A stretch of 48,071 nt of DNA from Rudaea sp. (GTDB taxonomy: Bacteria > Pseudomonadota > Gammaproteobacteria > Xanthomonadales > Rhodanobacteraceae). Each line of letters begins with the position of its first letter. The stretch's first letter is position 1. The notes under the pieces are model-generated. The model was given only the letters and a program-made list of their open reading frames with translations, searched no databases and was not told the origin of the DNA. Both the position numbers and the translations under genes were made by a program. Of this stretch, positions 4,831 to 37,945 are shown in pieces. The stretch covers positions 1 through 48,071 of the forward strand of contig JANWJJ010000020.1 of NCBI GenBank assembly GCA_025451955.1, read 5' to 3'.

Positions 4831-4859
4831 GTCATTCCGGTAGTCCCTGCCGGAATGAC
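4831..4859. repeat. Short REP-like palindrome, possible terminator
   Basis: GTCATTCCGG (4831-4840) and its exact reverse complement CCGGAATGAC (4850-4859) flank a 9-base loop. The arm sequence is the core of the repeat family also seen at 9251, 16827 and 37841. It lies between two convergent genes, where a stem-loop could end transcription from both sides, although there is no T-run. Confidence 0.75.
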
Positions 4860-4884
4860 AAGCTGTTTAGTCTGTCGGGCTGGT

Positions 4885-6938: not shown

Positions 6939-8302
6939 GTGATGCCGAGTCCTTCGATCTGCGCTATCGCCGCCGGATCGAATCCGGCCAGGCGCGCGAA
7001 TTCGCGACCGCGCTCGGCGTAGTCCTTGAACTGGTCAAAACTCGGCGCGCCGGGAGACAGCAAAATCACCGGGTGCGCACTCGCCAGCGTGCGCGCGCGC
7101 ACCACAGCATCGGCAAGCGACGTGGCGGATTCCAGCACGAAACCCGGCGATTCCATGTGGCCCAGCGCCGCCGCAATTTTTGCGCCATTCGCGCCCATCG
7201 TCACGATTCCACGCGGCGGATGGGCCGCAACATAATCCACAAATACGCTCCAGTCCACGCCGCGATCGAATCCGCCGATCAGCACTACGACCGGGCGACC
7301 ATGCAGGCTGCGCAGCGCCTCGATCGTCGCATACGGTGTGGTGGAAATGCTGTCGTTGATGTATTCCAGACCGTCGCAGACGCCGAGCGATTGCAGCCGA
7401 TGCGGCAACGGCCTGAATGTGGCGATGTGGGTCGCGGCGGTGGCGGCGTCCTCGCCCGCTGCCTCGATAGCCGCCAGCGCGGCGCAGACATTCTGTGCAT
7501 TGTGATGTCCGGGCAAGGGCAGCGCCGCCAGTGGCAGGATGGATTGTTCGCCGTTCCAGATCGCGTCGCCGCGTACGTGCCAGCCATCGAATCCGCCGAA
7601 GGTCCGGCGCGAGGGATGCGCCGCTGTCGCGGCCAGCAATTCCGGTTGCGCATTCACGATCAGACATTGCGCATGCGCGGCAATCGCCAACTTGTCGGCG
7701 GCGTAGCGTTCACGCGTGCCATGCCAATCCAGATGTTCTTCGTACAAGTTATTGATGAGCGCAACCGCCGGTGAACCCGCAAAATCCTGCGTCTGGAAAC
7801 TCGACAGCTCGATCACCCACCAATCCGGCTTGCGCGATGGCTCGAGCAGATTCAGCAGAGGCAGGCCGATGTTGCCAGCCAGCGCAATGCGCAAGCCGTT
7901 TTGCCGCAGCAAATACGCGATCAAGGCCGTCACCGTGCTTTTGCCCTTGGTACCGGTGACGCAAATCGTGTGCGCATCGGGATGTTCGGCGAACCACAGT
8001 GCCGTGCCGGAAGTGAAATGCACGCCGGCCGCGACGGCTTCCGGCACCGGCGAATGGTACGGACTGATACCAGGCGATTTGATCACGACGTCGAATTGCG
8101 CGAGCACGGCAGCATCGGGCGGTAGCGTGACGACGCGAAGCATCGCATCGACTTCAGAAATTGAACGTGCCTCATCCTCGCTGCAAAACAGGGTCCATGC
8201 GTGATCCGGGAAACGCTGCCGCAATGCGGACAATGCGGCCCGACCCTCGCGGCCATAGCCCCACACCGCGACGCGCTTGCCGGCGAGATCGTCAAGCCGC
8301 AT
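6935..8302 (-). CDS. murD2: UDP-MurNAc-L-Ala--L-Glu ligase (MurD2)
   Basis: 455 residues, a Mur ligase with three domains: an N-terminal Rossmann domain (GKRVAVWGYGREG, residues 8-20), a central ATPase with P-loop GTKGKST (117-123), ELSSFQTQ and NLYEEHLDWHG, and a C-terminal domain (LPHRLQSLG, YINDSISTTP, IGGFDRGVDW). Ordinary MurD adds D-Glu. In Xanthomonas a divergent paralogue, MurD2, adds L-Glu, which MurL then epimerises. I assign MurD2 because the gene directly follows a murL homologue, overlapping it by 11 bases, and not in a dcw cluster. A conventional MurD is possible on sequence alone but unlikely in this context. Cytoplasmic, peptidoglycan precursor synthesis. Confidence 0.85.
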   Translation of the reverse strand: MRLDDLAGKRVAVWGYGREGRAALSALRQRFPDHAWTLFCSEDEARSISEVDAMLRVVTLPPDAAVLAQFDVVIKSPGISPYHSPVPEAVAAGVHFTSGTALWFAEHPDAHTICVTGTKGKSTVTALIAYLLRQNGLRIALAGNIGLPLLNLLEPSRKPDWWVIELSSFQTQDFAGSPAVALINNLYEEHLDWHGTRERYAADKLAIAAHAQCLIVNAQPELLAATAAHPSRRTFGGFDGWHVRGDAIWNGEQSILPLAALPLPGHHNAQNVCAALAAIEAAGEDAATAATHIATFRPLPHRLQSLGVCDGLEYINDSISTTPYATIEALRSLHGRPVVVLIGGFDRGVDWSVFVDYVAAHPPRGIVTMGANGAKIAAALGHMESPGFVLESATSLADAVVRARTLASAHPVILLSPGAPSFDQFKDYAERGREFARLAGFDPAAIAQIEGLGIT

Positions 8303-9698
8303 CGAGCAGACCTTGCAGACGCGGCGGGAGGAAATGCTCCGGCGACGGCGCCAGCAATGGTTCCAGCGCCAGTCCCGCGGGATTGAGTTGCGGCAGGATT
8401 TCCTCGGCGAAACGCGCGATCAGCGCATCCTCACGCCATTCCGGGCGTTGCGATAATGTATACATCGCCGCACGTGATTCGCCGCCTTCGCCGACGCACT
8501 CAAACGGCTTGTGCTCGCGGTATTCGAGCAAGGCATCAAAGCCCGACGCCAGCGTCGCGTCGTCAAGCAGGTTGCGGCCAAAGATGCCCAGCAGCCGCGG
8601 CTTGGCCACGAACGGAGCCAGGGCAAGAAACACAAAATGGCATTTCGGACACTGCCCGCACCAGCGATCCGCCGGACGTTCGCCGCGGATGCGGAAATTG
8701 CGGTTGCAACTGGAAAACACGTCGTCGTAGCGGGTTTGCCGCGCGAACGCCCGCGTGACCGCGAGTTCCGACCACGGCCGCAGCAGCGAAAAATAATCCA
8801 TATCCGCGGCGATATGCGATTTTGTATACTCACGCAGACCCCGCTCGAAATCCAGGCTTTTGCTCCACTGGTGATTCACCGGCTGACCGTCGTACTCGAG
8901 CGTTGCCGCCGATGCCGATGCCTCGTTGGAAAACGCGATCGCGTCGTAGCCGTAGAGGATCGCCGCGCACAACAGAATCGCCGAGTTGATCGCAGTCACC
9001 GGGATATGACCATTCCACGCGCCCAGGCGGTTGTACTCGAACAACTCCGGAGCAAGGCGACGCTTGAGGTTGAGCATCGGCAAGCCCGTACGCTGCGCGC
9101 AAGCCGCGATCAGCGCGGAATCGCCGACCCAGACCGCAGTCATCGGCTCGCGTATACTTTTCAACATTTCCACACTGACCAGCGAATCCTTGCCGCCGCC
9201 GATCGGGACGAGGGTGCGGCGCGGTAACCAGAGCACTTCTGGTTTTTGCCCGTCACCCCGGCGAAGGCCGGGGTCCAGTTCTTTCTTTTCAGAGTGAAGA
9301 ACTGGATTCCCGCCTTCGCGAGAATGACGAGCGAATGAAATCCGTCCACGCAAATCCAGCTTGTTCTGGTACGCGAATTCCGCGAGGCCATGCAGGTAGA
9401 TTTGATCGAGGAATTCCGCCGTCGCCACGTCCAACGGCACGCCTTCCACCACGATCCGTGGCGGCACTCCCGCCTTGTAATAACTTACGCCGGCGATCAA
9501 GTGCAGCAATCTCAGCGCGGCGGAGAAAGCGGGTTTTCGTTCCTCCGGCAACGTCGGCGCGTCGGGAAAACCGATGCGCTCAATCAGATCAGGGCCATCG
9601 TCAAAGGCGTAGACAAGTTCAGCCTCGCCGGTGGCGTAACCGCAGCGCACGAAGCGGAAAGATTGCGCCTGGCGCGGATTGGCGAGCGTAGAAGCCAT
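8292..9698 (-). CDS. murL: UDP-MurNAc-L-Ala-L-Glu epimerase (MurL), with repeat-derived insertion
   Basis: 468 residues from the ATG at 9698. It converts the terminal L-Glu of UDP-MurNAc-L-Ala-L-Glu to D-Glu in an ATP-dependent reaction, replacing glutamate racemase MurI in Xanthomonas-type bacteria. A GGGKDS motif (residues 167-172), resembling a PP-loop, precedes a C-terminal half with clustered cysteines (FSSCNRNFR, RWCGQCPKCHF). Two things are odd. Residues of about 124-150 (RHSREGGNP...LDPGLRRGD) are the translation of a dispersed palindromic repeat inserted in frame. The start codon lies in the terminal inverted repeat of a MITE-like element; a longer frame opens with GTG at 9812 but only by reading through that element. 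Ribosome site weak. It overlaps murD2 by 11 bases. Confidence 0.85.
   Translation of the reverse strand: MASTLANPRQAQSFRFVRCGYATGEAELVYAFDDGPDLIERIGFPDAPTLPEERKPAFSAALRLLHLIAGVSYYKAGVPPRIVVEGVPLDVATAEFLDQIYLHGLAEFAYQNKLDLRGRISFARHSREGGNPVLHSEKKELDPGLRRGDGQKPEVLWLPRRTLVPIGGGKDSLVSVEMLKSIREPMTAVWVGDSALIAACAQRTGLPMLNLKRRLAPELFEYNRLGAWNGHIPVTAINSAILLCAAILYGYDAIAFSNEASASAATLEYDGQPVNHQWSKSLDFERGLREYTKSHIAADMDYFSLLRPWSELAVTRAFARQTRYDDVFSSCNRNFRIRGERPADRWCGQCPKCHFVFLALAPFVAKPRLLGIFGRNLLDDATLASGFDALLEYREHKPFECVGEGGESRAAMYTLSQRPEWREDALIARFAEEILPQLNPAGLALEPLLAPSPEHFLPPRLQGLLDAA
9251..9329. repeat. Dispersed palindromic repeat inside murL
   Basis: Two 32-base arms (9251-9282 and 9298-9329, about 25 of 32 positions complementary) flank a 15-base loop. 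Each arm contains the GTCA-CCGGCGAAGGCCGG-TCCAG type core shared with the copies at 4831, 16827 and 37841. Read on the minus strand it is open and in frame with murL, giving the RHSREGGNP and LDPGLRRGD peptides that are typical translated remnants of this repeat type. Confidence 0.85.
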
Positions 9699-16808: not shown

Positions 16809-16826
16809 GGAACCTCCGCACATGCC

Positions 16827-16906
16827 GTCATTCCGGCGAAAGCCGGAATCCATCTTGATCTTCAAGGCTAAAAGTCAAACTGGAATCCGGCTTTCGCCGG
16901 AATGAC
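16827..16906. repeat. REP-like palindromic repeat, full-length copy
   Basis: Two 26-base arms, 16827-16852 and 16881-16906, complementary at 25 of 26 positions, separated by 28 bases. The arm core is GTCATTCCGGCGAAAGCC. Each arm is itself partly palindromic. It lies 18 bp after the hydroxylase stop and 34 bp before the convergent gene's stop, so it could act as a transcript end or RNA-stabilising structure. It is the best conserved of four copies in the window. Confidence 0.88.
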
Positions 16907-16940
16907 GAGCTGCGGGGTTGTGCAGCCATACTTTAGACGT

Positions 16941-37727: not shown

Positions 37728-37840
37728 GCGTACTCCTGTCGGAATGACGGCGATCGGGCCTGGCGAAACGGCCTGCCGTCAAAAAAGGCGTTGGATTATG
37801 CCATGGAGAGGCAAGGCGCGCACCCTTTCGCACAATGCTC

Positions 37841-37945
37841 GTCATTCCGGCAGGGACTGCCGGAATCCAGTCCACAGGGACGTGCCTATCGATCTGGCCA
37901 ATCCATCCGTGGTTTCTGGATGCCGGCAATCCCTGCCGGCATGAC
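37841..37945. repeat. REP-like palindromic repeat between tgt and yajC
   Basis: Two arms of about 31 bases (37841-37871 and 37915-37945) are largely complementary; each holds its own small dyad around CCGGCAGGGA. The left arm begins GTCATTCCGGCAGGGACTGC. It starts three bases from the tgt stop codon. It is a variant (CAGGGA instead of CGAAAG in the arm centre) of the family seen at 16827. Confidence 0.82.

Follow-up and report, generated by a model that had tools for sequence, protein, structure and literature searches.

Palindromic repeats of several families in the MurL linker, and the pairing of CGTC and CTC-like repeats with small nuclease genes

Introduction

The closest described counterparts of the repeat analyzed here are the CGTC palindromic repeats (REPs) surveyed in 2013 (Di Nocera, De Gregorio, Rocco 2013, PMC3733652). 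According to the sections of that survey consulted, a CGTC REP carries a CGTC tag at one end and a CCA tail at the other, with A-T pairs at the first two stem positions and, in CGTC-1, an 8-bp stem and a 4-nt loop, and the repeats occur predominantly as head-to-head dimers. They are reported there from five phyla, without a dedicated transposase, in hosts that include Azospirillum lipoferum, Sinorhizobium meliloti and Novosphingobium aromaticivorans; a CCTC tag variant is described, and Rickettsia RPE-4 and RPE-6 are equated with CGTC repeats. Many intragenic copies are listed, encoding 20–30 residues, with linkers suggested as tolerated sites; recB carries a repeat at approximately the same site in two Xanthomonas species.

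The repeat that we describe shares with these REPs the CGTC tag, 8-bp stem, 4-nt loop, CCA tail, dimeric arrangement and intragenic location of some copies. Compared with the same sections of the 2013 survey, our data differ in two respects: a single linker of a single protein has been occupied by several unrelated repeat families across many lineages, and a GIY-YIG nuclease gene accompanies, as partner, a family said to have no dedicated transposase. An inverted REP pair, a nuclease gene flanked by repeats and non-autonomous dispersed copies are also features of the REP/RAYT (TnpA-REP) systems and REPINs, but the partners found here are GIY-YIG and DUF559 (PD-(D/E)XK, Vsr-like) proteins rather than an HUH transposase, and the genome in question yielded no RAYT. 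Like our repeat, the Rickettsia palindromic elements are translated in frame within genes; unlike the host studied here, their hosts are alphaproteobacterial, and the likeness noted here is drawn from their description. Finally, a nuclease-like DUF559 protein, as in our loci, has been described in Caulobacter, where VsrA is needed for a DNA damage response and linked to mismatch repair at methylated sites (PMC12907096, consulted in part); the words "palindrom" and "inverted repeat" are absent from the text of that paper.

A CGTC repeat dimer is translated within MurL

The window, that is, the whole 48,071-nt stretch of Rudaea sp. DNA analyzed (contig C20 of a 2.55-Mb assembly in 154 contigs, 81% complete), carries murL on the minus strand at 8292–9698, and the product scores 746 bits against the MurL model NF041275 of NCBIfam (cut-off 700). 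Within this gene, at 9251–9329 on the minus strand, lies a 79-nt CGTC-tagged REP dimer that encodes residues 124–150 (RHSREGGNPVLHSEKKELDPGLRRGD) and extends one base into the following codon. On the murL strand, the element reads CGTC-ATTCTCGC-GAAG-GCGGGAAT-CCAG ... CTGG-ACCCCGGC-CTTC-GCCGGGGT-GACG. The first REP in gene direction (9302–9329), with a CGTC tag, 8-nt stem arms, a 4-nt loop and a CCAG tail, is translated as RHSREGGNP, and a spacer (9279–9301) separates it from the second, inverted REP (9251–9278), translated as LDPGLRRGD. Both REPs have the CGTC tag at one end and the CCA tail at the other, with the tags pointing outward and the tails inward, and the 8-bp stem and 4-nt loop match CGTC-1 in length; the leading stem pairs of the ACCCCGGC arm are A-T followed by C-G, and the other arm contains a T.G pair. 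As single-stranded DNA, the element folds at -26 kcal/mol (z -7.2, with none of 200 shuffles equally good). An earlier note on this DNA had proposed a palindromic repeat translated within murL, and the 79-nt dimer with its strong hairpin bears this out. Taken alone, the in-frame repeat adds one more example to the intragenic REPs described in 2013.

The repeat lies upstream of the GGGKDS motif (residues 167–172; 9183–9200, minus strand), which is invariant in the 46-sequence alignment from which an AlphaFold model of MurL was built. Mean pLDDT of this model is 91, but falls to 67, 41 and 52 in the three successive blocks of ten across residues 121–150 and stays below 50 at 128–141. The low-confidence stretch runs between a helix (106–111) and the strand preceding GGGKDS, and in the model the linker leads from the N-terminal part into a PP-loop-like domain, at its strand and P-loop. 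The nearest structures are the PP-loop enzymes QatC and QueC, matched weakly (Foldseek E ~4e-4 to 5e-4); Pfam gave no match to MurL, and a sequence search of solved structures returned neither MurL nor a relative. The model supports the placement of the repeat in a predicted disordered, tolerated linker, in agreement with the suggestion that a loop just before GGGKDS accommodates it.

In the MurLs from the closest genomes (L011–L015, 75–80% identity), the residues of the insert are absent, as the earlier note had predicted for relatives. The linker from EFAY to GGGKDS spans 66 aa here and 45–46 aa in congeners, a net gain of 20–21 residues, and since 79 nt do not divide evenly into codons, the insertion must have been accompanied by a local loss of ~16–19 nt. 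The length of the element excludes a plain in-frame insertion, so that of the in-frame insertion originally proposed there stands only that the frame was kept open. Because the flanking linker has diverged, the exact empty site is unreadable, and alignment of nine sets of loci with and without inserts gave neither a clean target-site duplication nor a clean empty site. Four of the six reading frames are open through the window's element, so an open frame alone does not account for the frame chosen.

Three further copies had been named in the window, at 4831, 16827 and 37841, and all exist: a single hairpin at 4834–4863 (minus strand) with a TGTC tag variant and a loop other than that of the murL copy, a second full CGTC dimer at 16826–16908 (plus strand), and a single CGTC hairpin at 37837–37866 (plus strand) with the same loop as the 4834–4863 copy. 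Their description as untranslated fits the copy at 16826, across which no frame is open, but those at 4834 and 37837 lie in open frames. A blastn search of the source genome with the repeat (E<=0.001) produced 33 match rows, which include places matched on both strands and which we count as 25 places besides murL, and the CGTC pattern was found 18 times forward and 15 times in reverse; the repeat is therefore multicopy and dispersed, as had been claimed. Rfam had no match in the window. Other copies in this genome are spanned, with at least 50 codons on each side, by 13 open frames, among which Pfam recognized a single domain, in L192, starting after the repeat copy; as Pfam has no MurL model, the check can say no more than that it turned up no second clear case. 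A 679-aa frame of genome G004 listed with the peptide (locus L327) gave no match in a motif search. On contigs C21 and C50 of genome G012, CGTC half elements are arrayed at intervals of 57 and 114 bases.

Several repeat families occupy the MurL linker

We examined the linker in 30 loci of relatives, 80 of 375 loci from named genomes and 63 further murL stretches of the order. Among 90 distinct aligned MurLs, runs of 5 or more inserted residues were confined to positions 123–159. Linker length in 136 distinct MurLs was 44–51 residues in 109 and 52–91 in the other 27, the insert carriers. The earlier note had called protein-coding capture of such repeats known but rare in core enzymes; known it is, from the intragenic REPs of the consulted sections of PMC3733652, but its rarity calls for qualification, given the many copies listed there and the frequency in the MurL linker of our sample (27 of 136). 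On a quick tree built without the linker (136 rows), insert presence changes 21 times, a count that does not tell gains from losses and has L104 scored as base (no insert); with L104 scored as insert, the number is 22, of which 13 are forced by starred branches. The 13 MurLs without the N-side anchor and 4 wrongly anchored ones that were left out of the tree show no insert by eye.

Eleven of the 27 inserts are unclassified, and the rest come from at least three repeat families. CGTC inserts account for four (L009, L016, L101 and L106; 4 changes), which by our reading share one frame. Nine are CCCTCTCCC-type ("CTC") inserts (8 changes) with the core CCCTCTCCCCTCCGGGGAGAGGGTCGGGGTGAGGGG, translated as PSPLRGEGRGEG; eight were found by profile, and L059 was added by core match. 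A third family, represented by L023 (copy at 1870–1955) and L116, shares 35 nt at 89% identity and lies in opposite orientations in two lineages (2 changes). Classes were assigned first by eye and then checked: L059 and L140 match the CTC core, the match of L056 is too weak, and neither L056 nor L105 was counted as CTC. The L105 insert has no CTC core match, but is 95–98% identical over 41–48 nt to repeats flanking three DUF559 loci. In the family f2 MurL of L140, the linker holds a CTC doublet that is absent in L143 and L159 of the same genus, whose genomes also lack matches to DUF559 and to the CTC pattern.

Several of these inserts belong to repeats with further copies in the respective genomes, counted here in match rows, of which a single place can give two, one per strand. 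The CTC repeats have 6–78 match rows in 11/11 genomes, and the third family has 34 rows in the genome of L023 and, with the L023 query, 26 in that of L116; the CGTC inserts of L101 and L016 have 64 and 16 rows in their own genomes. The unclassified L010 insert has only 3 rows including itself, the two further ones being weak. The MurL linker is thus a recurrent landing place for several repeat families across lineages.

CGTC repeats flank small GIY-YIG genes

In genomes searched with the count pattern CATTCCNGCN(3-5)GCNGGAAT, five of the six examined pairs of CGTC repeats spaced 319–351 nt enclose a gene of ~100 codons for a GIY-YIG protein, with the domain PF01541 detected in all four proteins scanned (E 2e-15 to 2e-13). 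No GIY-YIG gene was present in the fetched pairs with other spacings (L300, L301, L302, L306, L324, L326), nor in L323 (the 319-nt pair), L322 or L303–L305 (genome of L101). Because these first pairs had been chosen by spacing, a second sample independent of spacing was taken from plasmid records: tblastn of one GIY-YIG protein gave 34 records, of which 15 were analyzed; those set aside were near-copies, a partial match (H34) and two records from Neisseria gonorrhoeae. Repeats on both sides of the gene (E<1e-5) were found at 11 of the 15 loci compared with 1 of 30 shifted windows (Fisher 1.4e-6), tagged CGTC in nine (for example, CGTCATCCTCGGGCTTGACCCGAGGATCCA) and CCTC in two, both from Sinorhizobium. 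Two other loci, L307 and L312, were negative in this two-sided comparison; there, CGTC or CCTC repeats are confined to the downstream flank. In Azospirillum lipoferum 4B (L310, 1483–1776), a GIY-YIG gene with CGTC repeats lies between sufB and sufC.

CGTC-type repeats are, then, physically paired with small GIY-YIG nuclease genes. No GIY-YIG gene was seen in the examined stretches around the CGTC copies of the window's own, 81% complete genome, so the partner proposed for the window's copy comes from other genomes.

Two other candidate partners were considered and set aside. With the CGTC model, only one match was obtained in 30 DUF559 loci, far from the gene. The RAYT model NF047646 had no match in the window's 81% complete assembly, which speaks against a RAYT-mobilized REPIN in this genome, and across genomes RAYT presence is no predictor of CTC counts (p 0.66) or of CGTC counts (p 0.50 over the 99 genomes, 1.0 within family f1).

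CTC repeats flank DUF559 genes

Upstream of murL, many Dyella and Rhodanobacter loci carry the CTC repeat twice, ~60 and ~480 nt from the start of the gene. In L049, the interval between these repeats holds a small broken gene, a DUF559 gene with one stop (2516–2971), and DUF559 genes, stop-broken in some loci, likewise lie between CTC repeats directly upstream of murL in L198, L199, L203, L212, L213 and L219. The PF04480 domain was identified in the L199 protein at E 3e-43, and a search with that model found DUF559 in 52/99 relatives and in 160/397 genomes sampled from the phylum. DUF559 resembles the endonuclease-like protein 3hrl (E 4e-26) and has weak matches to Vsr (E 0.005) and to the mobile intron protein 3r3p (E 0.22).

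To quantify the association, we searched 350 nt on each side of a gene for matching inverted sequence (E<1e-5), with shifted windows as the control. Among DUF559 loci of the order, 30 of 47 were positive, compared with 0 of 94 shifted windows; leaving out the units adjacent to murL, probably orthologs of one another, gives 23/39 (p 1e-15). The phylum sample gave 12/28 versus 1/56, windows elsewhere in murL loci 0/383, and the RAYT positive control, 20 loci picked among high-scoring ones, 12/18 versus 0/36; L200, L205, L280 and the RAYT loci L264 and L271 were too short for the flank window and were left out. The test was not passed by 17/47 DUF559 loci of the order and 16/28 of the phylum. Same-strand matches occurred as well (14/28, 4/19 and 11/28; RAYT 10/18), as arises when each repeat is itself palindromic, so the test demonstrates paired repeats, and their inverted order is read from the tags. 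The repeats vary among loci and track the nuclease (Mantel r 0.39, p 0.0002, 35 loci, six murL-adjacent loci left out), as shared descent of the unit would also produce. CTC-like repeats are thus physically paired with DUF559 nuclease genes. Two peculiar arrangements were observed among these loci: three DUF559 genes in tandem, spaced exactly 501 bases, on contig C3 of genome G043 (275814–277118), and DUF559 frames that enter the downstream repeat (L285, L288, L291, L295, L199), such that the C-terminus (for example, RTLTPTPLPEGEGL) appears to be repeat-encoded.

Discussion

Our favored explanation, which we hold with considerable confidence, is that a CGTC-tagged REP dimer was inserted into a permissive interdomain linker of murL. 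A dimer would have landed in the linker and a small local deletion would have kept the frame; the insert would survive owing to the disordered, permissive nature of the linker and to a RHSREGGNP...LDPGLRRGD frame that is open and hydrophilic. In other lineages, the same linker would have taken up CGTC, CTC and further repeat families.

How the repeats spread is a separate question, and here our proposal has roughly an even chance of being correct: the nucleases would act on and spread the repeats that flank their genes, GIY-YIG in the case of the CGTC repeats and the Vsr-like DUF559 in the case of the CTC-like repeats, by cutting and copying at palindromes. The MurL copy would then be a non-autonomous descendant of such nuclease-spread repeats. 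Homing endonucleases include GIY-YIG and Vsr-like folds, which fits a cut-and-copy route. Stated generally, bacterial palindromic repeats may have at least three kinds of partner nuclease, RAYT (HUH; GTAG repeats), GIY-YIG (CGTC) and Vsr-like DUF559 (CCCTCTCCC-like), each encoded between inverted copies of the repeats that it cuts or nicks and spreads, with some copies ending up translated, as in MurL; we consider this generalization about as likely to be right as wrong.

The strongest competitor, less probable in our judgment but a serious one, reverses the order of events: like homing endonucleases, the nucleases would settle in repeat pairs already present, as in a safe site, and the repeats would move by other means (RAYT, replication slippage, gene conversion). 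The many GIY-YIG and DUF559 genes located between two copies of one repeat are what invasion of dimers would give. If repeats came first, however, repeat-rich genomes without the nuclease should be common, and the counts point the other way. With the CTC pattern CCTCTCCCN(1-12)GGGAGAGG and DUF559 called at E<1e-10 in 99 genomes, at least 5 CTC repeats occur in 36 of 46 genomes with DUF559 and 6 of 53 without (p 8e-12), and outside the window's genus in 30 of 38 versus 1 of 45 (p 4e-14), comparisons that account for kinship only within genera and use thresholds (5 for CTC, 8 for CGTC) set after the counts were seen. In genera with both DUF559 states, CTC counts go up with DUF559 in 8 and down in 1, the window's own, where the count does not follow DUF559: five genomes of this genus have 12–39 CTC repeats and no detected DUF559, as a repeats-first order would allow, and none was found in the 81% complete genome of the window itself. 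The failure of RAYT presence to predict either repeat also speaks against this alternative. For the CGTC repeats, pairing by counts is not clean, as these counts also rise moderately with DUF559 (Spearman 0.41, p 3e-5, in 99 genomes; 0.38, p 0.003, in family f1), the contrast at a cut-off of 8 giving Fisher 0.02 in all 99 and 0.29 in f1.

Somewhat more doubtful is the idea of a genuine insertion hotspot at the MurL linker, where a DNA feature or an upstream DUF559 unit feeds repeats in and tolerance is only part of the cause. The CTC repeats upstream of murL in Dyella and Rhodanobacter, around a DUF559 gene in several loci, would provide such a source, and the linker copy of L022 is identical over the 36-nt core to a copy 65 nt upstream, although 36 identical nt in a genome-common repeat are weak evidence of local origin. 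The window, moreover, has a CGTC insert and no upstream DUF559 unit, and across MurLs the insertion points differ by several residues and the families differ. That the insert was selected for a function in MurL, in regulation or partner binding, could be read into the repeated occupation of one linker, but is highly improbable given that family, length and sequence vary, that 109 of 136 MurLs have no insert and that the model shows no structure there.

We found neither the linker as a repeated landing place nor the two nuclease families as REP partners in the open-licence literature to which our search was confined: among the papers listed, neither GIY-YIG nor DUF559 is brought together with REPs in a title or the opening of an abstract, the bacterial REP papers checked for the word GIY-YIG contain zero occurrences, and a term search of the 2025 RepRanger paper (PMC12306157) found neither name.

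Under the reading that we favor, insertion of mobile repeats into a permissive linker, these observations have consequences for both the repeats and the enzyme. The GIY-YIG pairing provides a testable candidate partner for the CGTC REPs, left without a dedicated transposase in the consulted sections of the 2013 survey (PMC3733652), and DUF559, a Pfam family of unknown function, gains a role to test. In the conserved enzyme MurL, mobile palindromes appear as a source from which new protein sequence has repeatedly arisen, and the inserts constitute a natural series for measuring linker tolerance.
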